Shown here: positions 20,057 to 43,966 of the stretch, in pieces
How the letters are laid out: every line of letters begins with the position of its first letter
Position numbering within the stretch: the first letter of the stretch is position 1
NCBI RefSeq assembly: GCF_002261355.1
Contig: NZ_NEVU01000003.1
Coordinates: forward strand, 1,674,001-1,738,000
Source: Bordetella genomosp. 12
GTDB taxonomy: Bacteria; Pseudomonadota; Gammaproteobacteria; Burkholderiales; Burkholderiaceae_B
Reading direction: 5' to 3'
DNA length: 64,000 bases
The notes under the pieces: generated by a model
Databases searched by the model: none
The model's input: the letters and a program-made list of their open reading frames with translations, nothing else
What the model was told of the DNA's origin: nothing
Made by a program: the position numbers and the translations under genes

Positions 20057-20947
20057 TTACAACTGCGGCCGGCTCAAATGGTCGACAAACAGCTTGGCCG
20101 CGGTGGGCAGCGCGTCAAAGGCGCGCACGCAGATCTGAATTTTGCGGCGCGCCCAAGGCTCGGTCAGCGGGATGATGCGAATGTTGAACATGGCGGAGTA
20201 ACGCTGCGCCAGATCCAGCGGCAGCACGCCCACGCCCAGCCCCGAATCCACCATAAAGCAAAGCGCGTCAAAACCGGTGACCTGCACCTTGAGCTTGACG
20301 GTGCGCTTGGCGCCGCTGGCCGCATGCGACAGGATACGGTTGATGGCGCTGCCGCGATGCAGGCCGATGAAGTCATACTCCAGCGCGTCGACGAAACGAA
20401 AACCCGCGGTGGCCTGCAACGGATGCGTGGCCGGCACCACCAGCGCGAGCATGTCTTCCCGATAGGGCAGGATCTCCACGTCGTGGTCGGGCACCGTACC
20501 TGAAAAAATGCCCACATCGGCGGCGTTTTCCGCCACGGCCTTGATAATGGCGGGCGTGATTTTCTCTTCGAGATCCACCTGAACGTTCGGATATTCACCC
20601 AGGAAATCCTTGATGTCCCGTGGCAGGAACTGCGTGATGGCCGAAATATTGGCGAATACACGCACGAAACCGCGCAGGCCGCTGGCGTACTCGCGCATGC
20701 GCACTGCCACTTCATCCAGCTCGTGCAGGGCGCGCCGCGCCATGGTCGACAGGGCGAAGCCGGCCGGCGTGGGGTGTATCCCCTTGTTGGTGCGGGTCAA
20801 CAGGCGAATGCCCAGGTTCTCTTCCAGCTCGCTGACGCGCTTGCTGACCGCCGCCGCGGCGATGTGCTCCTGCTCGGCGGCCGCGGCAATCGTGCCCAGC
20901 TCGACCACGCTGATGAAAAGCTTGAGGGAGGTGGGATCGAGACGCAT
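20057..20947 (-). CDS. LysR-family regulator of the adjacent GMC/ALDH/HAAT/CoA-lyase operon
   Basis: 296 residues starting MRLDPTSLKLFISVVELGTIAAAAEQEHIAAAAVSKRVSELE, the standard LysR winged helix, followed by a periplasmic-binding-protein-like effector domain (FVRVFANISAITQFLPRDIKDFLGEYPNVQVDLEE). It is transcribed divergently from the aldehyde dehydrogenase gene with 188 bases between them. LysR proteins so placed normally activate the divergent operon in response to a pathway compound. A 6-bp inverted repeat at 21029-21046 is a candidate binding site. Confidence 0.9.
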   Translation of the reverse strand: MRLDPTSLKLFISVVELGTIAAAAEQEHIAAAAVSKRVSELEENLGIRLLTRTNKGIHPTPAGFALSTMARRALHELDEVAVRMREYASGLRGFVRVFANISAITQFLPRDIKDFLGEYPNVQVDLEEKITPAIIKAVAENAADVGIFSGTVPDHDVEILPYREDMLALVVPATHPLQATAGFRFVDALEYDFIGLHRGSAINRILSHAASGAKRTVKLKVQVTGFDALCFMVDSGLGVGVLPLDLAQRYSAMFNIRIIPLTEPWARRKIQICVRAFDALPTAAKLFVDHLSRPQL

Positions 20948-21028
20948 GCAACGGCCAGCCCGGAAAAGGTTACGGCGCCCATTTTAGCCACGACGGCAGC
21001 CGTCATCGCATTTGGTGATGGCAGCATC

Positions 21029-21046
21029 GCTAAACACTGCTTTAGC
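21029..21046. promoter_or_regulatory. Candidate LysR binding site between divergent LysR and aldehyde dehydrogenase genes
   Basis: GCTAAA (21029-21034) and TTTAGC (21041-21046) are inverted around six bases in the 188-base divergent gap. The size and dyad resemble LysR half-sites. A second partial dyad (CATC...GATG) lies just upstream at about 21004-21020. Confidence 0.4.
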
Positions 21047-21135
21047 CGCTGCGCGCGCCATTGCTAGACTCGCCCCAAAATGGCCTCGATGTCACCGACA
21101 TGGGGCGATAAGTTCGATGTGGAAGACGAGACAGC

Positions 21136-22605
21136 ATGAAATTGCAGAATGCCCAGCTGCTGCGGCAGCAGGCCTATATCGGCGGCCAATGGTGCGACGC
21201 CGACAGCCAAGCCACCATCACCGTACGCAATCCGCATGACGGCAGCAGCCTGGGAACGGTTCCCAACCTGGGCGCCGCGGAAACGGCCCGCGCCATCGCG
21301 GCCGCCGACCGTGCGCTGCCGGCCTGGCGCGCCAAGACGGGCAAGGAGCGCGGCGCGATTCTGCGCAAATGGCATCAACTCATCGAGGCCCATGCCGACG
21401 ACCTGGCCCTGCTGCTCACGCTGGAACAAGGCAAGCCCCTGGCCGAAGCCCGAGGCGAGCTGAACTACGCCCTGTCTTTCGTGGAATGGTTCGCCGAGGA
21501 AGCCAAGCGCGTCTACGGCGACGTGCTGCCCAGCCCCCGGGGCGACCAGCGCATGATGGCCATCCGCCAGCCGGTCGGCGTGGTGGCGGCCATCATCGCC
21601 TGGAATTTCCCGTCGGCGCTAGTCACGCGCAAAGTCAGCCCGGCGCTGGCGGCGGGCTGCACCGTGGTGCTCAAGCCCTCCGAACTCACGCCGTTTACCG
21701 CGCTGGCGCTGGCCTGGCTGGGCGAACAGGCCGGCATCCCGCCTGGCGTGCTCAACGTGGTCATTGGCGACCCCGCGCCCATCGGCGCCGAGCTTTCCGG
21801 CAACAGCACGGTGCGCAAGCTCACCTTTACCGGCTCGACCCAGACGGGTCGCCTGCTGATGCAGCAAAGCGCCGCCAACATCAAGAAGCTTTCGCTCGAA
21901 CTGGGCGGCAACGCGCCGTTCATCGTGTTCGAGGACGCCGACCTGGACGACGCGGTGCAGGGGCTGATGGCCTCGAAGTTCCGCAATGCCGGCCAGACCT
22001 GCGTGTGCGCCAATCGCGTCTACGTGCATGCATCCGTGGCGCAGTCCTTCACGGACAAGCTGCAAGCCGAGATCCAACAACTCAAGCTGGGCGGCGGCCT
22101 GCAACCCGGCGTCACGCTGGGCCCGCTGATCGATCAGCGCGCCGTGGACAAAGTGCGTGGCCTGGTCGAGGACGCCCGCGCCAAGGGCGCCCGCATACTG
22201 ACCGGCGGCCAGCTTCAGGCCGAGGGCAGCCTGCTCTATGAAGCCACGTTGCTGACCGGCGTGACCGACGCCATGGACATCGCCCATCAGGAGATCTTCG
22301 GGCCGGTCGTGGGCATCAGCACCTTCGAAGACGAAGCGGCCGTTCTGACCCGCGCCAACGACAGCGAGTCGGGCCTGGCCGCGTATTTCTACACCGCCAA
22401 CCTGGAGCGCGTCTGGCGCGTCATGGAAGGCCTGGAGTACGGCATCGTGGGCGTCAATACGGGCGCAGTCTCCAACGAGGTCGGCCCCTTTGGCGGCATC
22501 AAGGAGTCGGGCGTCGGCCGCGAAGGCTCGAAGTACGGCATCGAAGAGTTCCTGGAAATCAAATACGTCTGCCTCGCCGGCAAGACGTTCAACGCCGCAC
22601 GCTGA
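21136..22605 (+). CDS. NAD(P)-dependent aldehyde dehydrogenase, succinate-semialdehyde dehydrogenase (GabD) type
   Basis: 489 residues, typical for GabD-type enzymes. Cofactor region IAWNFPSALVTRKVSPALAAG and FTGSTQTGRLL; catalytic E255 in LELGGNAPFIVFEDADLDDA; nucleophile C289 in NAGQTCVCANRVYV; C-terminal PFGGIKESGVGREGSKYGIEEFLEIKYV. It oxidises an aldehyde, often one carrying a distal carboxylate, to the acid. It starts an operon and is followed 7 bases later by a GMC alcohol oxidoreductase, so the aldehyde it uses is probably that enzyme's product. Nothing nearby suggests GABA metabolism. Confidence 0.92.
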   Translation: MKLQNAQLLRQQAYIGGQWCDADSQATITVRNPHDGSSLGTVPNLGAAETARAIAAADRALPAWRAKTGKERGAILRKWHQLIEAHADDLALLLTLEQGKPLAEARGELNYALSFVEWFAEEAKRVYGDVLPSPRGDQRMMAIRQPVGVVAAIIAWNFPSALVTRKVSPALAAGCTVVLKPSELTPFTALALAWLGEQAGIPPGVLNVVIGDPAPIGAELSGNSTVRKLTFTGSTQTGRLLMQQSAANIKKLSLELGGNAPFIVFEDADLDDAVQGLMASKFRNAGQTCVCANRVYVHASVAQSFTDKLQAEIQQLKLGGGLQPGVTLGPLIDQRAVDKVRGLVEDARAKGARILTGGQLQAEGSLLYEATLLTGVTDAMDIAHQEIFGPVVGISTFEDEAAVLTRANDSESGLAAYFYTANLERVWRVMEGLEYGIVGVNTGAVSNEVGPFGGIKESGVGREGSKYGIEEFLEIKYVCLAGKTFNAAR

Positions 22606-22612
22606 AACCGCC

Positions 22613-24247
22613 ATGAATCAAGCACAGCAATCGTCCCTGCGGGATGCGGACCGTTACGACTATGTGATCGTGGGTTCGGGCGCCGCCGGCGCCATCCTGG
22701 CCAATCGTCTCAGCGCCCGCGGCGCGACGGTCTGCGTGCTGGAAGCCGGCCCGCCGGATCACAGCCCCTGGCTGCATATCCCGGCCGGTTTCATCAAGGC
22801 GGTGTTCAACAACAAGTACGCCTGGCAGTTCTCCAGCGAGCCGACCGATCTGACCAACGGCCGCCGCGTGCCGATTCCGCAAGGCCGCACGCTGGGCGGC
22901 TCGACCTCGATCAACGGCCTGGTCTACAACCGCGGCCAGGCGGCCGATTACGACCACTGGGCCAGTCTGGGCAACACCGGCTGGTCGTATGAGGAAGTCC
23001 TGCCCTACTTCAAGTCCATGGAACGGCGCATCGGCGGCGACTCGCGCTATCGCGGACGCACGGGCGAGCTGCCGGTCACGGACATCGACTGGATTCACCC
23101 CTTGTGCGAGGCCTTCATCGCCGGCGCCGAGGAACAGGGCCTGCCGCGCAATCCCGACTACAACGGCGCCAGCCAGGCCGGCGTCGGTTACTTTCAGCGC
23201 ACCATCGACCGGGGCTGGCGCATGAGCACGGCGCGCTGCTTTCTGCGCCCCGCCATGGCGAAGAAGAACCTGACCGTTCGCACGCATGCGCAAGCCACCC
23301 AGGTGCTGTTCGAAGGCAACCGCGCGGTCGGCGTCGCGTACTGTGATCCGCGTCACCCGTCGGCTGCGCGCAGCGTGCGGGCCAACCGCGAGGTCATCGT
23401 GGCCAGCGGCGCCATCAACACGCCCAAGCTGTTGCAGCTCTCGGGGCTGGGTCCGGCCGATTTCCTGCGCGAGATGAACATCCCGGTCGTGCGCGATCTG
23501 CCCGGCGTGGGCGAGAACCTGAGCGACCACTACTCGGTCCGCGTGGTGGCCCGCGTCAAGCAAAGCCAGACCATGAACGAGCTGGTCAAGGGCCTGAACC
23601 TGGTCGGGCAAGTCAGCCGCTGGCTGCTCAAGCGCCCCAGCATCATGGCCCTGAGCCCCTCGCTGCTGCACTACTTCTGGAAATCGCTGCCCGAACTGGA
23701 CGCTCCCGATCTGCAAGGCGTCTTCACGCCGGCCAGCTACAAGGAAGGTTATGTCGGCGTCTTGGATGACTTCCCCGGCATGACCGCCGGGGTGTGGCAG
23801 CACCGGCCGCAGAGCCGGGGCCAGGTGCGCGTGCGCAGCGCCGATCCCATGCAGGATCCCCTGATCCGCGCCAACTACCTCAGCCACCCCGACGACCAGA
23901 TCACGCTGGTGCGCGGCATACGCCTGGCGCGCAGCCTGCTGCAGTCGCAGGCGCTGGCCCCCTATTTCGATGGCGAGGCGCTGCCCGGCCCTCTGTGCCA
24001 GTCGGATACCGAATTGCTGGATTTCGCCCGCCGCTACGGCGTGTCTTCGTACCACGTCAATGGCACGGCCCGCATGGGCCCGGCCGGCGACCGTCTGGCG
24101 GTGGTCGATCCCCAGCTCCGTGTCCACGGCGTGCAGAACCTGCGCGTCGTCGATTCTTCCGTCATGCCCGCGATGCCTTCGGCCAATATTTGCGCGGCCA
24201 CCATGATGATAGGCAACAAGGCTGCGGATCTGATCAAGCAGTCCTGA
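22613..24247 (+). CDS. GMC-family FAD-dependent alcohol oxidoreductase (choline-dehydrogenase-like)
   Basis: 544 residues from the ATG at 22613. The dinucleotide motif YDYVIVGSGAAGAILANRLS (residues 15-34) binds FAD. The GMC signature GRTLGGSTSINGLVYNRG lies near residues 90-108, and the C-terminal active-site region is SYHVNGTARMGP followed by PSANICAATMMIGNKAADLI. Such enzymes oxidise primary alcohols to aldehydes. The partner aldehyde dehydrogenase gene lies immediately upstream, giving a two-step alcohol-to-acid conversion. No betaine genes are near, so choline is an unlikely substrate. Confidence 0.92.
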   Translation: MNQAQQSSLRDADRYDYVIVGSGAAGAILANRLSARGATVCVLEAGPPDHSPWLHIPAGFIKAVFNNKYAWQFSSEPTDLTNGRRVPIPQGRTLGGSTSINGLVYNRGQAADYDHWASLGNTGWSYEEVLPYFKSMERRIGGDSRYRGRTGELPVTDIDWIHPLCEAFIAGAEEQGLPRNPDYNGASQAGVGYFQRTIDRGWRMSTARCFLRPAMAKKNLTVRTHAQATQVLFEGNRAVGVAYCDPRHPSAARSVRANREVIVASGAINTPKLLQLSGLGPADFLREMNIPVVRDLPGVGENLSDHYSVRVVARVKQSQTMNELVKGLNLVGQVSRWLLKRPSIMALSPSLLHYFWKSLPELDAPDLQGVFTPASYKEGYVGVLDDFPGMTAGVWQHRPQSRGQVRVRSADPMQDPLIRANYLSHPDDQITLVRGIRLARSLLQSQALAPYFDGEALPGPLCQSDTELLDFARRYGVSSYHVNGTARMGPAGDRLAVVDPQLRVHGVQNLRVVDSSVMPAMPSANICAATMMIGNKAADLIKQS

Positions 24248-24309
24248 CCCACAAGCAGTTCCGATCGTTAAGGCACCCCGTATAAGGGGCACGCCCAGGA
24301 GACAACGCA

Positions 24310-25500
24310 GTGAAACACAACAACCCGCTCAAGGCTCTTGTCCTGACCGCCGCTTTGCTGGCCAGCGCCAGCGCACTGGCCGACGACATCAAGATCGGCT
24401 TTAACAGCGATATGTCGGCCACCGGCTCGGCCGACTTCGGTATTTCGGCTCTGGCCGGCGCCCGTCAGGCTGCCGACGAGCTCAACGCCGCAGGCGGCGT
24501 GCTGGGCAAGAAGGTCGTCATCGTGGCGCGCGACGACGTGGGCGCGCCGCCCAAGGCCATCCAGAACACCAACGAACTGGTGGACAACGAGAAGGTCAAC
24601 GCCATGCTGGGCGGCGTGAACTCGGGCAACATGCTTGCCTGGCTGCACATCGCGCAACAGAAGAAGATCCCGACGATCTCGCCGGTTGCCACGGCCACCG
24701 ATATCACGGGCCGCTACACCAAGTCGCCGCCGAACTACATCTTCCGCGTCTCCATGCGCGACCGCGACCAGATCGCGCTGCTGGCGGCCTACGCGGCACG
24801 CGCCAGCAAGAACGGCAAGGTCGCCATCATCGCCGACACCACCGGCTATGGTCAGCAAGGCGCCAAGGATGCGCTGGAGATCCTCGAGCTGCACAACATC
24901 AAGCCGGTGGCCAACGAGAAGTTCGGTCCGAAAGACACCGACATGAGCTCGCAGCTCAACAAGATCAAGAGCTCCGGCGCCGATACGCTCATCGTCTACG
25001 CACTGTCGGACTCCAATGCGCACGTCATGCGCAGCCTGGAGAAGATCGGCTACTTCCCGACCACGCTGGCCTCCTGGGCCAACCTGAGCTCGCCGTTCCT
25101 GCGCATCGCCGGGCCAGAACTGGCCAAGAAGATGATCTTCACCGCCTCGATCACCGAAGACTCTTCGGCTGACTCCAAGGCACTGTATGACACGCTCATG
25201 AAGCGCGACGGCCGCCTGCCCACCTATGTGATGGCCGCCCAGGCCTATGACTCGGTCAAGCTGCTGGCCGCCGCCATGGAGCAAGCCAAGTCCACCGATG
25301 GCGAGAAGGTACAAGCCGCGCTGGAGAATCTGCAGCAAGCCAAGGGCGTCATCAAGACCTATAACAAGCCCTTTACGGCAGACAACCACGAAGCCCTGTC
25401 GGTCAAGGATTTCCGACTGGTGCGCTGGGTCGATGGCAAGGTGGTCTCGGTCGATGACGAGATCGTCAAGGCCATCACGCCGGCAGACCTCAAGCTCTGA
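24310..25500 (+). CDS. HAAT-family ABC transporter substrate-binding protein (LivK-like)
   Basis: 396 residues starting with GTG behind CAGGAGAC. A signal peptide (HNNPLKALVLTAALLASASALA) precedes the mature domain IKIGFNSDMSATGSADFG. Type I periplasmic-binding features follow, including NAMLGGVNSGNMLAW, VAIIADTTGYGQQGAKDALE and the C-terminal TADNHEALSVKDFRLVRW. The family binds branched-chain amino acids but also hydroxy acids, amides and aromatic acids. Being inside a catabolic operon, its ligand is likely that pathway's substrate. It lies 62 bases after the GMC gene. Confidence 0.92.
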   Translation: MKHNNPLKALVLTAALLASASALADDIKIGFNSDMSATGSADFGISALAGARQAADELNAAGGVLGKKVVIVARDDVGAPPKAIQNTNELVDNEKVNAMLGGVNSGNMLAWLHIAQQKKIPTISPVATATDITGRYTKSPPNYIFRVSMRDRDQIALLAAYAARASKNGKVAIIADTTGYGQQGAKDALEILELHNIKPVANEKFGPKDTDMSSQLNKIKSSGADTLIVYALSDSNAHVMRSLEKIGYFPTTLASWANLSSPFLRIAGPELAKKMIFTASITEDSSADSKALYDTLMKRDGRLPTYVMAAQAYDSVKLLAAAMEQAKSTDGEKVQAALENLQQAKGVIKTYNKPFTADNHEALSVKDFRLVRWVDGKVVSVDDEIVKAITPADLKL

Positions 25501-25510
25501 TCGACGCAAG

Positions 25511-25538
25511 GCGCGTCCCTGTCGCGGCAGGGGCGCGC
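25511..25538 (+). terminator. Intercistronic hairpin between binding-protein and LivH genes
   Basis: An 11-bp stem (25511-25521 with 25528-25538, one G-U pair) with a 6-base loop lies 10 bases after the binding-protein stop. It has no T-run. It probably protects the upstream message or partly limits read-through, giving more binding protein than permease. Confidence 0.55.
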
Positions 25539-25554
25539 TGGCAAGGATTCCAGC

Positions 25555-26469
25555 ATGCAATTACTACAAGCCATACTCAGTGGATTGGCCATGGGCAGCG
25601 TGTATGCCCTGGTCGCGTTCGGTTTCAGCATCACCTACACCACGACCAAGACCTTCAACTTCGGCCAAGGGGCGTTTCTGGCCCTGGCCGGGCTCATCGG
25701 CATCAGCGCCATCGTGCTGGTCACCCAGGGCAAGCTGATCGGTTTTCCGTCACCGCAGGACGTCACCTGGGGCAGCTTCCTGTTCGCCCTGGCCGCGGCC
25801 ATGCTGGTGTTGGCCCTGCTGGGCTACGTGCTCTACATCACCGCCATCAAGCACTTCGTGGGCGAGGCCGGTCTGTCCTGGGTCATGAGCACCATCGGCT
25901 TTGGCATCATCATCCAGAACCTGGCTCTGCTCATCTGGGGCCCGGCGCCCATCGCCGTAGCCTCGCCGCTGGGCGAGGGCGTGGTCAACATCCTGGGCGC
26001 CGGTGTGCGGCCGCAGGAGATCCTGGTCTTTGCCACCACCCTGGTCCTGATGATCGTGCTGGACTGGGCGCTGCATCGCACCAAGATGGGCAAGGCCGTG
26101 CGCGCCGTCGCCTTCAGTAAATCGGCCGCCAGCCTCATGGGCATCAATGCCAACGCGGTCGCCGTGGGTGTCTTCGCCATCAGCTCGGCCCTGGCCGCGG
26201 TTGCGGGCGTCATGGTTGCCCCCATCGCCACGGCTTCCGTCTTCGTCGGCACGCTGCTCTCGCTCAAGGCCTTCTCGGCCGCCATCCTCGGCGGCCTGGA
26301 GAACCCGCGCGGCTGCATCTTCGGCGGCTTTCTGATCGGCCTGCTGGAATCCCTCATCGGCCTTTGGTACTCCAATCTGCGCGAGATCGCTGTCTTCGCG
26401 CTCATCATCGTCGTGCTCTATTTCCGGCCCGCCGGCATCCTGGGCCGTGTCCACGCGGAGAAAGTATGA
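25555..26469 (+). CDS. livH: HAAT ABC transporter permease LivH type
   Basis: 304 residues with about eight hydrophobic segments. Family hallmarks are the start MQLLQAILSGLAMGSVYALVAFGFSITY, the NFGQGAFLALAGL loop, and LKAFSAAILGGLENPRGCIFGGFLIGLLES near the C-terminus. It forms half of the inner-membrane channel with the LivM part of the next protein. Its stop overlaps the next start (ATGA at 26466-26469), indicating translational coupling. Confidence 0.93.
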   Translation: MQLLQAILSGLAMGSVYALVAFGFSITYTTTKTFNFGQGAFLALAGLIGISAIVLVTQGKLIGFPSPQDVTWGSFLFALAAAMLVLALLGYVLYITAIKHFVGEAGLSWVMSTIGFGIIIQNLALLIWGPAPIAVASPLGEGVVNILGAGVRPQEILVFATTLVLMIVLDWALHRTKMGKAVRAVAFSKSAASLMGINANAVAVGVFAISSALAAVAGVMVAPIATASVFVGTLLSLKAFSAAILGGLENPRGCIFGGFLIGLLESLIGLWYSNLREIAVFALIIVVLYFRPAGILGRVHAEKV

Positions 26470-28223
26470 ATCTGCGTCCTCTCCTCGTCCCGCTGTGCGT
26501 GGCCGCTCTGGCCGTGGCTGCCGCCTACTCGGGTTTGAACGATTTCTACCTGCTCATCCTCTTTAACATCGGCGTGTATTACATCGCCGCCACGGGCTTT
26601 AACATCCTGGTCGGCCAGACCGGCCAGAAGTCCCTGGGCCACGCCGGCCTGTTCGGCGTGGGCGCCTACACGGTGGCGCTGCTCACGGTGAACTACCAGG
26701 TCAACCCCTGGCTGGCGCTGGCCGCGGCCATCGTGATCTCGGCCCTGTTCGGCGTGGCCATCGCGCTGCCCGCGCTCAAGGTCAAAGGCCCCAGCCTGGC
26801 CATGGTCACCATCGCCTTCGGCCTGCTCATCGAGAAGATCGTCTCCGAATGGACCGACGTCTTCAAGGGCCAGGAGGGCTTTTACGGCATCACCGGCCTG
26901 ACCTGGGGCGGCGCGCCGCTCGACGGGCGCCAGTGGGTGGTCGTGGTGGTGGTGATCGGCCTGCTGCTGCATGCGGCCACCTCGCTGCTGCTCAACGGCC
27001 GCTTCGGCCGCGGCTTTGCCGCCGTGCGCACCTCGGAGATCGCCGCCGGCAGCGTGGGCATCAGCGTCTACCGCTTCAAGATCCTGGCCTTTGTCATCAG
27101 CGCCATCACCTGCGGCATCGCCGGCGGCCTGGTGGCCCAGCAAAACCAGTACATCAACTCCGACTTCGTCAACTTCAACCTCTCGGTCTTCTTCCTGGTG
27201 CTGGTGCTCTTTGGCGGGCGCTCGCCCACCGGGTCCTTCCTGGGCGCGGTGGTGCTGACCGTGATCGATGCCATGCTCGCGCGCTGGCCCGAGGTGCAGC
27301 ACTTCGCCTATGGCCTGATCCTGCTGTTCGCGCTCTATGCCATGCCCGAAGGCCTGTCCGGCCTGCTGGCGCGCGTGCTGCCGCGCCGCAGCCTGCTCTC
27401 GGCCCGCGAGCGCGAGGCCATCAAACCCTGGTCGCCCACGCAGACCCGCAAGCAAGGCGCCGGCGACCTGCTGGTGGTCAAGGACCTGTACAAGGCCTTC
27501 GGCGGCGTGGTGCCCACCAACAAGGTGTCCTTCAGCATCCAGGAAGGCAGCATCGTCTCGCTCATCGGCCCCAACGGCGCGGGCAAGACCACCACGCTGA
27601 ACCTGCTCTCCGGGCTGGTCACGCCCGATGCGGGCAGCATCCGCTTCAAGGATCACGACCTGGTGGGCCTGCCGGCCGATCAGATCGCCTCGCTGGGCAT
27701 CGGGCGCACCTTCCAGAACCTCAAGCTCTTCGAGGGCCTGAGCACGCTGGAGAACGTCATGGTGGGCCTGTACCGCGTGCAGCGCTCCGGCTTCTGGGCC
27801 AACCTGCTGGGTCTGCCCTCCAGCCTGGCCGAGGAGCGGCGCATGCGCCGCGAGGCCTATGCCATCCTGAAGTTCTTCGAACTCGAGCGCTACGCCGATG
27901 ACGCGGCCAACAGCCTGCCCTACGGCCTGCAGCGCCGCCTGGAGATCGCCCGCGCGGTGGCCGCCATGCCCGAGCTGCTCTTGCTCGACGAGCCGGCCGC
28001 GGGCCTGAACCCTGCCGAGACCGACGCGCTCACCGGACTGATCGCCCGGCTGCGCGACAAGGGCCTGACGGTGCTGCTCATCGAGCATCACATGGACCTC
28101 GTCATGGCCATCTCGGATCAGATCGTGGTGCTGGACTATGGCGTGAAGATCGCCAGCGGCCTGCCCGCCCAGATCCAGGAGAACCCCAAAGTCATCGAAG
28201 CCTACCTGGGCGCCCCGGCGTAG
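26466..28223 (+). CDS. Fused HAAT permease (LivM) and ATP-binding subunit (LivG)
   Basis: 585 residues from the ATG overlapping the livH stop. The first 310 or so residues are the LivM-type permease (NIGVYYIAATGFNILVGQTGQKSLGHAGLFGVGAY, GGRSPTGSFLGAVVLTVIDAM). After a short linker the rest is a LivG-type ATPase: Walker A GPNGAGKTT, IGRTFQNLKLFEGLSTLENVMVG, LPYGLQRRLEIARAVA as signature region, Walker B LLLLDEPAAGLNP, and H-loop IEHHMD. LivM and LivG are separate proteins in Escherichia coli; fusion is seen in many beta-proteobacteria. It energises import together with LivF. Confidence 0.93.
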   Translation: MNLRPLLVPLCVAALAVAAAYSGLNDFYLLILFNIGVYYIAATGFNILVGQTGQKSLGHAGLFGVGAYTVALLTVNYQVNPWLALAAAIVISALFGVAIALPALKVKGPSLAMVTIAFGLLIEKIVSEWTDVFKGQEGFYGITGLTWGGAPLDGRQWVVVVVVIGLLLHAATSLLLNGRFGRGFAAVRTSEIAAGSVGISVYRFKILAFVISAITCGIAGGLVAQQNQYINSDFVNFNLSVFFLVLVLFGGRSPTGSFLGAVVLTVIDAMLARWPEVQHFAYGLILLFALYAMPEGLSGLLARVLPRRSLLSAREREAIKPWSPTQTRKQGAGDLLVVKDLYKAFGGVVPTNKVSFSIQEGSIVSLIGPNGAGKTTTLNLLSGLVTPDAGSIRFKDHDLVGLPADQIASLGIGRTFQNLKLFEGLSTLENVMVGLYRVQRSGFWANLLGLPSSLAEERRMRREAYAILKFFELERYADDAANSLPYGLQRRLEIARAVAAMPELLLLDEPAAGLNPAETDALTGLIARLRDKGLTVLLIEHHMDLVMAISDQIVVLDYGVKIASGLPAQIQENPKVIEAYLGAPA

Positions 28224-28232
28224 GAGCCAGTC

Positions 28233-28955
28233 ATGAGCAGATTGCTAGATATCCAGAACCTCTCGGTCAACTACGGCGCGGTCAACGCGCTCAAGGAAGT
28301 GTCGCTGCACGTCGAGCGCCACGAGATCGTGACCATCATCGGCGGCAACGGGGCGGGCAAGAGCAGCATGATGCGCGCGCTCTCGGGCATCGAGAAATCC
28401 ACCGGCCAGGTGCTGCTCGAGGGCCAGGACCTGGCCGGCATCCCCGCGCACCAGCGCGTGGGCCTGGGCATCGCCCATGTGCCCGAAGGCCGGCAGGTCT
28501 TCCCGGACCAGACCGTTCACGACAACCTGCTGCTTGGCGCGTTTCTGCGGCGTGAGCCCCAGGCCGTGCTCGATGCCGAGATCGAAACCTGCTTTGCGAT
28601 GTTCCCGCGCCTCAAAGAGCGGCGCGAACAGTACGCGGGCACTTTGTCCGGCGGCGAGCAGCAGATGCTGGCCATCTGCCGCGCCCTGATGAGCAAACCC
28701 CGCATCCTGATGCTCGATGAGCCCTCGCTGGGCCTGGCCCCGCTCATCGTCGCGGAGATCTTCCGCATCATCCGCGCGCTCAAGGAACAGGGCATGACCA
28801 TCCTGCTGGTCGAGCAAATGGCCAACCAGGCCCTGGCCATCTCCGACCGCGCCTATGTGCTCGAGGTCGGCAGTATCGTGATGCAGGGCAGCGGCCAGGA
28901 ACTGCTGGCCAGCGAACGCGTGCGCCAGGCCTATCTGGGCAAACACAAGCATTGA
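28233..28955 (+). CDS. livF: HAAT ABC transporter ATP-binding protein LivF
   Basis: 240 residues, standard LivF size. Walker A GGNGAGKSS, the GIAHVPEGRQVFPDQTVHDNLLLGA segment, signature LSGGEQQMLAICRALM, Walker B ILMLDEPSLGLAP, and H-loop LLVEQ. It pairs with the LivG half of the preceding fused protein. The gene lies 9 bases after the fusion gene and 11 before the CoA-transferase gene, so transport and metabolism genes are on one message. Confidence 0.95.
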   Translation: MSRLLDIQNLSVNYGAVNALKEVSLHVERHEIVTIIGGNGAGKSSMMRALSGIEKSTGQVLLEGQDLAGIPAHQRVGLGIAHVPEGRQVFPDQTVHDNLLLGAFLRREPQAVLDAEIETCFAMFPRLKERREQYAGTLSGGEQQMLAICRALMSKPRILMLDEPSLGLAPLIVAEIFRIIRALKEQGMTILLVEQMANQALAISDRAYVLEVGSIVMQGSGQELLASERVRQAYLGKHKH

Positions 28956-28966
28956 CGGGACTTAGC

Positions 28967-30157
28967 ATGTCAACCAAACCCCTGAGCGGCATCCGTGTTC
29001 TCGAGCTGGGCCAGCTCATCGCCGGCCCTTTCGCGGCCAAGATGCTGGGCGAGTTCGGCGCCGAAATCATCAAGATCGAGCCTCCCGGCAAGGGCGATCC
29101 CTTGCGCAACTGGCGCCTCATTCATGAGGGCACCTCTGTCTGGTGGCAGGTCCAGTCGCGCAACAAAAAATCGGTCAGCCTGGATCTGCGCCAACCCGAA
29201 GCGCAGGATCTCATCCGCAAGCTGGTGACCGAGGTGGATGTCGTCATCGAGAACTTCAAGCCGGGCACGATGGAAGGCTGGGGCCTGGGCTGGGAAGATC
29301 TGCGCGCCATCAACCCGCGCCTGGTCATGCTGCGGGTCTCGGGCTACGGCCAGACCGGGCCGTACCGCGATCTGCCGGGCTTCGGGGCCATCGGCGAGGC
29401 CATGGGCGGCCTGCGCCACCTGAGCGGCGAACCCGGCCGCACCCCGGTGCGCGTGGGCGTGTCCATCGGCGACTCGCTGTCGGCGCTGCACGGGGTGATC
29501 GGCATTCTGCTGGCTTTGCGTTCGCGCGATGCCACCGGCGTCGGTCAGTGGATCGATGTCGCGCTGTATGAGTCCGTCTTCAACATGATGGAAAGCCTGC
29601 TGCCGGAATACGCCGTCTTCGGTGAAGTCCGCCAGGCCGCGGGCAGCAGCCTGCCGGGCATCGCGCCCAGCAACGCCTACCGCTGCCAGGACAACAAGTA
29701 TGTGCTGATCGCCGGCAACGGCGACAGCATCTTCAAGCGCCTGATGGGCGTGATCGGCCGCCCTGAGCTGGCCGACGCCCCCGACCTGGCCAACAACGCC
29801 GGCCGCGTCAAACATGTCGAAATGCTCGATGCGGCCATTTCGGAATGGACCGGCCGCCATGACCAGGAAACGGTGCTGGCTGCGCTGAATCAAGGCCAGA
29901 TTCCGGCGGGCAAGATCTACGACGTGGCCGACATCGCCGCCGACCCGCATTACCGGGCGCGCGACATGATCATCGACGAGCAGCTTGCCGACGGCACCCC
30001 GATCCAGGTGCCCGGCATCGTCCCCAAGCTGTCCGGCACCCCCGGCGAAATCGCCAGCGCCGCCCCCACCCTGGGCCAACACACCGACGAAGTGCTGGAA
30101 AGCCTGGGCGTGGACGCTCAGCAACGGGCGCAATGGCGCTCGCGCGGGCTCATCTGA
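28967..30157 (+). CDS. CaiB/BaiF family III CoA-transferase
   Basis: 396 residues from the ATG at 28967. Family III CoA-transferase features include MLGEFGAEIIKIEPPGKGDPLRNW, SLDLRQPEAQDLI, ENFKPGTMEGWGL and GFGAIGEAMGGLRHLSGEPGRTPVRVGVSIGDSLSALHG, where D169 is at the position of the catalytic aspartate that forms the acyl intermediate. It would move CoA from a donor such as succinyl-CoA to a carboxylic acid. Known members use oxalate, carnitine, mesaconate, citramalate, and in the human homologue SUGCT glutarate and 3-hydroxy-3-methylglutarate. The lyase gene follows 11 bases downstream. Confidence 0.92.
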   Translation: MSTKPLSGIRVLELGQLIAGPFAAKMLGEFGAEIIKIEPPGKGDPLRNWRLIHEGTSVWWQVQSRNKKSVSLDLRQPEAQDLIRKLVTEVDVVIENFKPGTMEGWGLGWEDLRAINPRLVMLRVSGYGQTGPYRDLPGFGAIGEAMGGLRHLSGEPGRTPVRVGVSIGDSLSALHGVIGILLALRSRDATGVGQWIDVALYESVFNMMESLLPEYAVFGEVRQAAGSSLPGIAPSNAYRCQDNKYVLIAGNGDSIFKRLMGVIGRPELADAPDLANNAGRVKHVEMLDAAISEWTGRHDQETVLAALNQGQIPAGKIYDVADIAADPHYRARDMIIDEQLADGTPIQVPGIVPKLSGTPGEIASAAPTLGQHTDEVLESLGVDAQQRAQWRSRGLI

Positions 30158-30168
30158 GAAAACGCATC

Positions 30169-31092
30169 ATGGACAACACGGGCAAGAAACTCTACATCCA
30201 GGAAGTCGCCCCCCGTGACGGCTTCCAGAACGAACGCCAGTTCATCGACACCGAAGACAAAATCGCCTTCATCGATAAGCTGTCGGCCAGCGGCTTTGCC
30301 AAGATCGAGGTCACCTCGTTCACCTCGCCCAAGGCCATCCCGGCCCTGCGCGATGCCGAAATGGTGATGCACCGCATTCAGCGCAATCCGGACGTGGTCT
30401 ACACGGTGCTGGTGCCCAATGTGCGCGGCGCGCAACGCGCCATGGAATGCAAGGTCGACGAAGTCAATCTGGTGATGTCGGTCAGCGAAACGCACAACCG
30501 GGCCAACCTGCGCATGACGCGCGAGCAGTCGCTCGAACAACTGGCGGAAGTCATTGCGGTCGTGCGCGACAGTGGCATCGCCATCAATGTCTCGCTGTCC
30601 ACCGTGTTCGGCTGCCCGATGCAGGGCGACATCAATGCGTTTGACGTCTACGAGCTGGTGGGCCGCTTCGCTTCCTTGGGCGTCGAGGGCATCACGCTGT
30701 GCGACACCACCGGGATGGCCTATCCCTCGCAGGTCCGCCGTATCTGCGCGGAAACCCGGCGCCTGTTTCCCGGCGTGGGATTGACGCTGCACTTTCACAA
30801 TACGCGCGGCATGGCGCTGGCCAACACCATGGCCGCGCTCGAAGCGGGCATCGACCGTTTCGACGCCTCGCTGGGCGGGCTGGGCGGCTGCCCCTATGCG
30901 CCCGGCGCCAGCGGCAACGCCTGCACCGAAGAGCTGGTCCATATGCTCAACCTCATGGGCTATGACACCGGCATCGACGTCGAGCGGCTGCTGGAGATCT
31001 CCGCCACGCTGCCCGCCCTCGTCGGCCATGACATCCCCAGCCAATTGCTCAAGGCCGGCACGCGCTCGCGTCTGCATCCCCCTCCGGCCTGA
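30169..31092 (+). CDS. HMG-CoA-lyase family enzyme (HNTRG variant)
   Basis: 307 residues from the ATG at 30169. It is a DRE-TIM metallolyase: R16-D17 in EVAPRDGFQNE, metal ligands H208 and H210 in LHFHNTRGMALANT, and catalytic-loop C241 and N250 in GGLGGCPYAPGASGNACTEELV. The segment after the metal histidines is HNTRGMAL rather than the HDTYGQAL of classical HMG-CoA lyase, which is present in the second copy at 43058. The reaction would cleave a 3-hydroxyacyl-CoA such as HMG-CoA or citramalyl-CoA into smaller CoA esters and a keto acid. It is the last gene of the operon. Confidence 0.88.
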   Translation: MDNTGKKLYIQEVAPRDGFQNERQFIDTEDKIAFIDKLSASGFAKIEVTSFTSPKAIPALRDAEMVMHRIQRNPDVVYTVLVPNVRGAQRAMECKVDEVNLVMSVSETHNRANLRMTREQSLEQLAEVIAVVRDSGIAINVSLSTVFGCPMQGDINAFDVYELVGRFASLGVEGITLCDTTGMAYPSQVRRICAETRRLFPGVGLTLHFHNTRGMALANTMAALEAGIDRFDASLGGLGGCPYAPGASGNACTEELVHMLNLMGYDTGIDVERLLEISATLPALVGHDIPSQLLKAGTRSRLHPPPA

Positions 31093-43057: not shown

Positions 43058-43966
43058 ATGCCTTTGCCTTCCCGCGTCAAGATTGTCGAAGTCTCCCCCC
43101 GCGACGGTCTGCAGAACGAAAAAGAATTCGTCCCCACCGATATCAAAGTGGAGCTGGTCGACCGCCTCAGCGCGGCGGGCTTCCCCAATGTGGAAGCGGC
43201 GTCCTTCGTCTCGCCGAAATGGGTGCCGCAGATGGCTGACGGCGCCGAGGTCATGGGCCGCATCGCGCGCCGGCCAGGCACGATCTACTCGGTCCTGACG
43301 CCCAACCTGAAAGGCCTGGAAGGCGCGCTGGCCGCCAAGGCCGACGAGATTGTCATCTTTGGCGCGGCCAGCGAAGCGTTCTCGCAGAAAAACATCAATT
43401 GCTCCATCGCGGAATCCATCGCCCGCTTCGAGCCGGTGGCCGAGGCCGCGCGCGCTGCCGGCCTGCGCGTGCGCGGCAGCATCAGCTGTGCGCTGGGCTG
43501 CCCCTATCAGGGCGAGGTGGCCATCGACAGCGTGGTGGACGTGGCGCGCCGTTTCCAGGCGCTGGGCTGCGATGAGATCGATGTGGCCGACACCATCGGC
43601 GTGGGCACGCCGCGCCGCGTGCGCGAGGTCATGAGCGCGGTCAGCGCCATCGTGGATCCCGCCAGGCTGTCGGGGCATTTCCATGACACCTATGGCCAGG
43701 CGCTGGCCAATATCCTGGCGGCCCTGGAAACCGGCATCACGATCTTCCACAGCTCGGTCTCGGGACTGGGCGGCTGCCCCTATGCCAAAGGCGCCACGGG
43801 CAACGTGGCCACCGAAGATGTGCTCTACATGCTGCGCGGCCTGGATATCGATACCGGCGTGGATTTCGACGCCGTGGTGGACATCGGCCAATGGATGGCC
43901 GCCAACCTGAACCGCAAGGGATCCAGCCGCGCCGGCAACGCGATTGCCGCCAAGCGCCAGGCCTGA
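43058..43966 (+). CDS. Hydroxymethylglutaryl-CoA lyase (classical type)
   Basis: 302 residues. R15-D16 in EVSPRDGLQNEKEFV, metal ligands H207 and H209 in GHFHDTYGQALANIL, and C240 with N249 in GLGGCPYAKGATGNVATEDVLYML are the catalytic set of HMG-CoA lyase. It splits HMG-CoA to acetoacetate and acetyl-CoA at the end of leucine breakdown. No other leucine genes are adjacent. It matches the classical HDTYGQAL form, unlike the variant lyase at 30169, so the genome carries two distinct members. Confidence 0.93.
   Translation: MPLPSRVKIVEVSPRDGLQNEKEFVPTDIKVELVDRLSAAGFPNVEAASFVSPKWVPQMADGAEVMGRIARRPGTIYSVLTPNLKGLEGALAAKADEIVIFGAASEAFSQKNINCSIAESIARFEPVAEAARAAGLRVRGSISCALGCPYQGEVAIDSVVDVARRFQALGCDEIDVADTIGVGTPRRVREVMSAVSAIVDPARLSGHFHDTYGQALANILAALETGITIFHSSVSGLGGCPYAKGATGNVATEDVLYMLRGLDIDTGVDFDAVVDIGQWMAANLNRKGSSRAGNAIAAKRQA

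Follow-up and report, generated by a model that had tools for sequence, protein, structure and literature searches.

What does the operon at positions 20057-31092 of a 64,000-nucleotide stretch of Bordetella genomosp. 12 DNA (hereafter the window) degrade? Its nine genes encode a regulator, an aldehyde dehydrogenase (ALDH), a GMC-family alcohol oxidoreductase, a HAAT-family importer, a CaiB/BaiF family III CoA-transferase and a lyase of the 3-hydroxy-3-methylglutaryl-CoA (HMG-CoA) lyase family (HMGL). The gene content, protein families, conserved catalytic motifs, conserved neighbourhoods and a duplicated importer were observed, and from these we infer all substrates and steps. The best explanation, which we hold with a little less than even confidence, is import of the substrate, its oxidation, CoA transfer, and cleavage of itatartaryl-CoA to hydroxypyruvate and acetyl-CoA.

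The operon's own importer would take up a branched hydroxy-acid bearing a primary alcohol, which the GMC enzyme and the succinate semialdehyde dehydrogenase (SSADH)-type ALDH would turn into a carboxylate, giving a 2-hydroxy-2-R-succinate. The transferase would then put CoA on this acid, and the lyase would split the citramalyl-CoA-type ester into acetyl-CoA and a 2-oxoacid. R would most likely be CH2OH, which would make the acid itatartarate and the 2-oxoacid hydroxypyruvate; the imported compound would be 2,4-dihydroxy-2-(hydroxymethyl)butanoate (xyloisosaccharinate) or an isomer, and hydroxypyruvate may then be handled by a dehydrogenase or isomerase found in relatives. That the acid is of the C5-branched succinate type is probable; that it is itatartarate itself is a tentative assignment, close to an even call but below it.

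Gene content and enzyme classes of the operon

The operon is present and complete at this location. Eight plus-strand genes span 21136-31092 in the open reading frame (ORF) list of the window, and the LysR-type regulator gene (20057-20947, minus strand; Pfam and NCBIfam profiles) is divergent from them. The gaps among the plus-strand genes are at most 62 bp, or the genes overlap, so that they likely form a single operon. A sequence-only reading of this DNA had described one operon divergent from a LysR gene, with a GMC oxidoreductase, a semialdehyde-type ALDH, a HAAT importer, a CaiB/BaiF transferase and an HMGL lyase. All of these genes were found there in the same direction, and Pfam and NCBIfam agreed on their classes. 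The classes and their place were retained, but the gene models were amended: LivM and LivG are fused, and the start codons of the GMC and lyase genes were placed at about 22613 and 30169, respectively.

The ALDH (21136-22605, plus strand) scored 649.1 against the SSADH model TIGR01780, above its cut-off of 646.35, and belongs to that family; its score against the GabD equivalog model was under the cut-off (718 versus 828). Alignment to E. coli GabD (3jz4) showed that it shares C288, E254, R164, R282 and S445. These residues are named for the E. coli SSADH, substrate-carboxylate binding among their roles, in the sections of PMC2823781 consulted. The kept carboxylate-binding residues would fit a semialdehyde with a far carboxylate and would not separate C4 from C5 backbones. 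The FAD alcohol oxidoreductase (22613-24247, plus strand) has GMC N and C domains and is choline-dehydrogenase-like, under the cut-offs of those models. Its orthologues, at least 68% identical, were found in 9 of 101 genomes of the family, and an order-wide search at E 1e-225 gave 6 of 399 genomes, its own included. Among the five other contexts from that search, one (L268) had no related gene and another (L265) had only Mcd, an itaconate/methylsuccinate gene.

The importer consists of a periplasmic receptor (24310-25500; Peripla_BP_6), a LivH-type permease (25555-26469; BPD_transp_2), a LivM permease-LivG ATPase fusion of 585 residues (26466-28223; BPD_transp_2 and ABC ATPase) and a LivF ATPase (28233-28955; ABC ATPase), all on the plus strand, so that Pfam and NCBIfam count two BPD_transp_2 permeases and two ABC ATPases. 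A second HAAT importer set lies at about 59.1-64.0 kb of the window, with a receptor 38%, LivH 35%, LivMG 39% and LivF 51% identical to the first. The CoA-transferase (28967-30157, plus strand, alternative start 28952; CoA_transf_3) keeps the catalytic-type aspartate that the sequence-only reading had reported, which is D169 from the start at 28967 and D174 from that at 28952. The lyase (30169-31092, plus strand; HMGL-like), our proposed itatartaryl-CoA (citramalyl-CoA-type) lyase, has the motifs PRDG, HFH and GGCPYAPGASGN, which presumably include its catalytic residues.

The same genes had been read as an oxidative pathway from mevalonate through mevaldate, 3-hydroxy-3-methylglutarate (HMG) and HMG-CoA to acetoacetate and acetyl-CoA. 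The architecture of alcohol oxidoreductase, ALDH, CoA-transferase, lyase and importer stood, with the order of steps as a deduction, and enzyme classes and order do match mevalonate catabolism. The lyase also belongs to the HMG-CoA lyase subfamily NF004283 (350 versus a cut-off of 246), a model that is unable to tell substrates apart, and the solved chain 9br6, named succinate--hydroxymethylglutarate CoA-transferase, was among the transferase matches. The mevalonate/HMG substrate was not supported. The transferase scored far under the equivalog model NF052585 for SUGCT (276.5 versus 750) and falls outside that family, and a second HMGL-family gene about 12 kb away (43058-43966, plus strand), 39% identical to the operon lyase, fitted the HMG-CoA lyase model better (488 bits versus 350). 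No neighbour pointing to mevalonate or HMG was found; acetoacetate would give no role to the dehydrogenase, isomerase and lactonase family encoded beside relatives (see below), and the same transporter genes occur in a second operon of this genome. The neighbours of relatives and the second lyase led us to drop mevalonate/HMG as first choice, and we now consider it hardly likely.

The 43058 gene adjoins dprA, and a scan of six more ORFs close to it named no leucine-catabolism gene. Elsewhere in the genome (contig 1210-1226 kb), a further CaiB (34%) and HMGL (43%) pair is followed by an acyl-CoA dehydrogenase gene 64% identical to Mcd, together with two genes resembling MmgE/PrpD and acyl-CoA ligase; these genes may encode a further pathway for a C5-branched acid that uses a lyase of the HMGL type.

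Neighbours of related lyases

We analyzed the loci of related lyases in named genomes. Counts out of 80 refer to the best 80 of at least 577 related stretches and so describe the nearest relatives only; the lyases of these loci were 66-84% identical, and genes were found by ORF calls and tblastn. The full nine-gene set was present in 13 of the 80 loci (11 Achromobacter and two Pararobbsia, P. silviterrae and P. alpina), and also in two further genomes (G100 and G062) and in G1023 of the same genus. This recurrence speaks against a chance assembly of the genes. One locus (L133) had ALDH-GMC-transferase-lyase without the importer, and another (L070) had GMC-transferase-lyase. In most of the remaining loci, mainly from Pseudomonas, Burkholderia, Paraburkholderia and Caballeronia, transferase and lyase were accompanied by a LysR of lower similarity. 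LysR orthologues of 58-97% identity were seen where GMC was present, and also where a CaiB-HMGL pair or an HMGL gene of the same family stood alone; beside the other relatives, identity was 34-49%. The transferase lay within 3 kb of the lyase in 71 of the 80 loci; two genomes (G047 and G005) retained LysR and lyase, with transferase and GMC not close by.

Two further loci differed in their state. A decayed copy of the operon in another genome of the genus (G1024, 3.7 Mb, L270) had full-length LysR and ALDH frames and shortened GMC and receptor genes, and no transferase or lyase frame was found in that stretch. A distant operon from another family of the order (G911, L267) had two GMC genes, in the order CaiB (65%), HMGL (59%), GMC (55%), receptor, LivH, LivMG, LivF and GMC (63%), with ALDH not among the genes called.

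Genes of three other kinds accompanied the related lyases. In 49 of the 80 loci a VOC gene of the PA0880 family lay directly 3' of the lyase, no more than 300 bp away, and in 52 it was within 6.5 kb; the protein of locus L093 has 127 residues, and solved relatives include GLOD5 and STM3117. In 39 loci a D-2-hydroxyacid dehydrogenase gene (at least 35% identical to the L093 protein) lay no further than 6.5 kb from the lyase. A 2-oxotetronate/hydroxypyruvate isomerase gene was next after the lyase in 11 loci, all Achromobacter and all among the 13 full operons; the one tested (L056) scored 353 against a cut-off of 325 for 2-oxotetronate isomerase (NF043033), and its hydroxypyruvate isomerase match was under cut-off. 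DctA was near the lyase in 20 loci, and one Caballeronia locus (L206) also had an SMP-30 lactonase-like gene. The parts of PMC9875883 consulted identify PA0880 as a 2-hydroxyparaconate lactonase with itatartarate as product, by deletion mutant, HPLC and GC-MS, and report that itatartarate accumulates as a dead end; strains of Pseudomonas putida KT2440 are also described there as failing to grow on 2-hydroxyparaconate mixed with itatartarate. The lactonase family, the dehydrogenase, the isomerase, DctA and, in a few cases, itaconate/methylsuccinate genes fit a C5 succinate-type acid that is cleaved to a 2-oxoacid and not to acetoacetate. Hydroxypyruvate as the product agrees with the presence, next to one group of lyases, of two unrelated enzymes for which it can be a substrate.

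The main rival to itatartarate is an acid of the (R)-citramalate type, the alternative already named in the sequence-only reading. GMC and ALDH would form (R)-citramalate from a C5 alcohol such as 2,4-dihydroxy-2-methylbutanoate, and transferase and lyase, acting like the Sct/Ccl pair of Chloroflexus, would yield pyruvate and acetyl-CoA. A family III transferase adjoining an HMGL-type lyase suits this route, as do the itaconate/methylsuccinate genes near some relatives, and (R)-citramalate is not metabolized by the known Ict/Ccl pathway according to parts of PMC9875883 and would hence need other enzymes. However, a pyruvate product needs neither the dehydrogenase nor the isomerase, and citramalate offers the VOC protein no gamma-lactone to act on by general chemistry. 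Citramalate is nearer than mevalonate, but the genes beside relatives speak more for itatartarate, the hydroxymethyl analogue of citramalate, and we regard the citramalate route as unlikely, though deserving of weight. A different 2-hydroxyacyl-CoA would be a minor rival, such as a malyl-CoA-type ester, or 3,3-dimethylmalyl-CoA derived from pantoate and cleaved to glyoxylate and isobutyryl-CoA, with the dehydrogenase as glyoxylate reductase. GMC and ALDH would yield dimethylmalate from pantoate by general chemistry, and the dehydrogenase also matched glyoxylate reductase models, under cut-off; but dimethylmalate likewise has no gamma-lactone, and the itaconate genes near relatives would be left unexplained. 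We consider this very unlikely.

For the itatartarate reading, the link to itaconate genes was followed through VOC contexts of 12 kb each, taken from 20 of the 52 genomes with a match in the family of P. reactans. The PA0878-PA0883 gene set was present in seven of the 20 (L246-L249, L256, L257 and L260; Pfam confirmed the set in L247). A CaiB-HMGL pair stood beside it in one of these seven (G203), where a LysR-transferase (63%)-lyase (64%) unit immediately adjoins the itaconate set; the other 13 contexts had no CaiB-HMGL pair in their 12 kb. In locus L077, the itaconate genes CitE, Ich, Ict and Mcd lay about 5-10 kb from the lyase. In genome G1016 a transferase (59%)-GMC (65%) pair was accompanied by Mcd (80%) and by a fragment of Ict, 78% identical over 130 residues; G652 had GMC (65%) beside Mcd (79%), with no transferase or lyase in view. 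None of the L247 proteins Ict, Ich, CitE, Mcd and MmgE had a tblastn match in the window at E 1e-30, more than 38% identity and more than 60% of the length, and at these thresholds the window shows no itaconate degradation genes of the Ict-Ich-CitE type; the window transferase is 29% identical to L247 Ict.

Phylogenies were also examined. In a lyase tree built from 61 of 107 distinct rows, the window lyase fell inside a supported 12-row clade in which 10 rows were GMC-linked, and 18 VOC-linked rows fell in a supported clade of 29. Three positions were found that separate the near lyases (91 rows, at least 66% identical) from a 60% group (12 rows), none of them diagnostic. Judged from identities of 66-84%, the last two steps are likely, though not certainly, the same across the lyase groups. 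A tree of 83 VOCs placed those of the six-gene itaconate clusters in a clade of their own, adjacent to the lyase-locus VOCs.

Several observations weigh against itatartarate as the substrate. The lyase-locus VOCs lay outside the itaconate-cluster clade (61-69% identical), PA0880-like members of that clade being recognized by their gene set, and VOCs equally close (72-84%) occurred in genomes without an adjoining CaiB-HMGL pair; a lactonase function of the VOCs beside lyases would therefore be carried over by analogy only. GMC and VOC never occurred in the same locus among the 80, and the fork joining the GMC-linked clade, the VOC-linked rows and a few others was not resolved in the lyase tree. 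No VOC or isomerase gene is part of the window operon, and the one gene of each in this genome lies elsewhere with no visible link. Nine of the 80 loci, two of them on short contigs, had no transferase within 3 kb, and 16 had no VOC, isomerase or dehydrogenase. Adjacency of the isomerase was confined to Achromobacter, and this enzyme could use 2-oxotetronate; the dehydrogenase matched general 2-hydroxyacid dehydrogenase models only, under cut-off. Itaconate genes adjoined only two of the 80 named loci (L077 and, weakly, L090) and three other genomes.

VOC genes were also seen in other settings. In a P. helleri genome (G111, L205, 6335-10086), genes for an MFS transporter, VOC, D-2-hydroxyacid dehydrogenase and RraA-type aldolase stand together with no CaiB-HMGL pair, possibly another use of the same VOC family. 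The sole VOC match of the window's own genome (L195, contig 1442.0-1458.5 kb) lies by a LysR gene, near ALDH, epimerase, TctC, Ldh_2, RraA and a piece of 2-hydroxyacid dehydrogenase, perhaps a sugar-acid cluster.

A second operon with the same importer

The 3392 bp block of LivH, LivM-LivG and LivF is present twice in the genome, 99.68% identical, at window 25554-28945 and at about 168.0-171.4 kb of the contig (L237:2460-5851). The second copy belongs to an operon on the same contig, SDR-E1-SDR-GntR-E2-receptor-LivH-LivMG-LivF. The receptor genes adjoining the near-identical blocks are 80.9% identical in DNA, and the transporter core was probably copied by recent duplication or gene conversion. 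An E1 orthologue (68-71%) was found in seven of the 101 family genomes, all among the nine with GMC (hypergeometric 2e-9, uncorrected for kinship). GMC and a lyase at least 66% identical co-occurred in six of the nine GMC genomes (6e-4), and E1 and such a lyase in four of the seven E1 genomes (0.015). In four GMC genomes (G087, G083, G070 and G061), the GMC gene was grouped with genes for a fused E1, an E2-like protein and either one SDR or two. A TRAP-type receptor gene stood beside this set in the first three (profile-tested in G087 only), and orthologues of the window HAAT importer accompanied it in G061; both operons lay side by side in G072. A class-wide E1 search at E 1e-230 gave only the window's own genome (1 of 369).

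The combination of a single importer, a pair of receptors and a single alcohol oxidoreductase suggests that two related compounds are used, which may be xylo- and glucoisosaccharinate. These share the scaffold R'-CH2-C(OH)(CH2OH)-COOH, in which R' is CH2OH in xyloisosaccharinate and CHOH-CH2OH in glucoisosaccharinate. GMC and SDR would convert glucoisosaccharinate to a 2-oxoacid, from which E1 and E2, as a dedicated 2-oxoacid dehydrogenase, would form itatartaryl-CoA directly, so that the two routes would meet at this ester. On this view, Pseudomonas and Burkholderia would employ lyases of this group to consume itatartarate and 2-hydroxyparaconate made by fungi. That isosaccharinates are the true substrates, and that this is a bacterial isosaccharinic acid route in which the GMC/ALDH and E1/E2 branches converge at itatartaryl-CoA, seems doubtful to us. 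Genomes G087 and G070 carry E1 and GMC but a lyase just 56-59% identical, and in G094 the contig ends at the expected lyase position, which weakens the idea of a common node. It also counts against such substrates that, according to parts of PMC4569480, isosaccharinate does not occur naturally in the wider environment.

Significance and comparison with known systems

No description of itatartarate cleavage or of isosaccharinate genes was found among the titles and abstract openings listed from the literature searched, which covered few subscription journals. If correct, the proposed pathway supplies the step so far lacking for the use of itatartarate, which fungi produce and which has been reported as a dead end in the bacteria examined. 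It would also assign a testable function to two genes that are widespread as a pair and that family models call simply CoA-transferase and HMG-CoA lyase. If isosaccharinates were the substrates, the operons would be a candidate genetic basis for degrading major products that cellulose and xylan yield under alkaline conditions; these compounds are of concern in pulping liquors and because they affect how mobile radionuclides are in cement-based waste stores. The locus also warns that not every CaiB-HMGL pair stands for a leucine, mevalonate or HMG pathway.

Compared with mevalonate catabolism of the Pseudomonas mevalonii type, HMG-CoA reductase was absent among the nine operon genes, a result that covers these genes and not the remainder of the genome. 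SUGCT and HMG-CoA lyase belong to the same protein families as the window transferase and lyase, but the transferase is far under the SUGCT cut-off, and the lyase is distant from the better-fitting 43058 gene. Chloroflexus aurantiacus pairs a family III transferase, succinyl-CoA:citramalate CoA-transferase (Sct), with an HMGL-type R-citramalyl-CoA lyase (Ccl), and the window resembles this pair as generally described; no GMC, ALDH or importer is known to accompany it.

The P. aeruginosa itaconate/methylsuccinate cluster PA0878-PA0886 (Ich, Mcd, RdoPA, MmgE, Ict, CitE-type Ccl and TRAP) also handles a C5-branched dicarboxylate with a family III transferase and then a lyase that yields acetyl-CoA and a 2-oxoacid, as given in parts of PMC9875883, and such clusters adjoin relatives of the window genes in a few genomes. 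The window operon differs in that an HMGL-family enzyme takes the place of the CitE-type lyase, the GMC and ALDH genes come first, a HAAT importer is present and a hydratase is missing. The 2-hydroxyparaconate/itatartarate metabolism of RdoPA and of Ustilago Cyp3/Rdo1 would supply the very acid proposed here; in the parts of PMC9875883 consulted, itatartarate is reported as a dead end and its cleavage is not described, whereas the window lyase is proposed to cleave it as its CoA ester.

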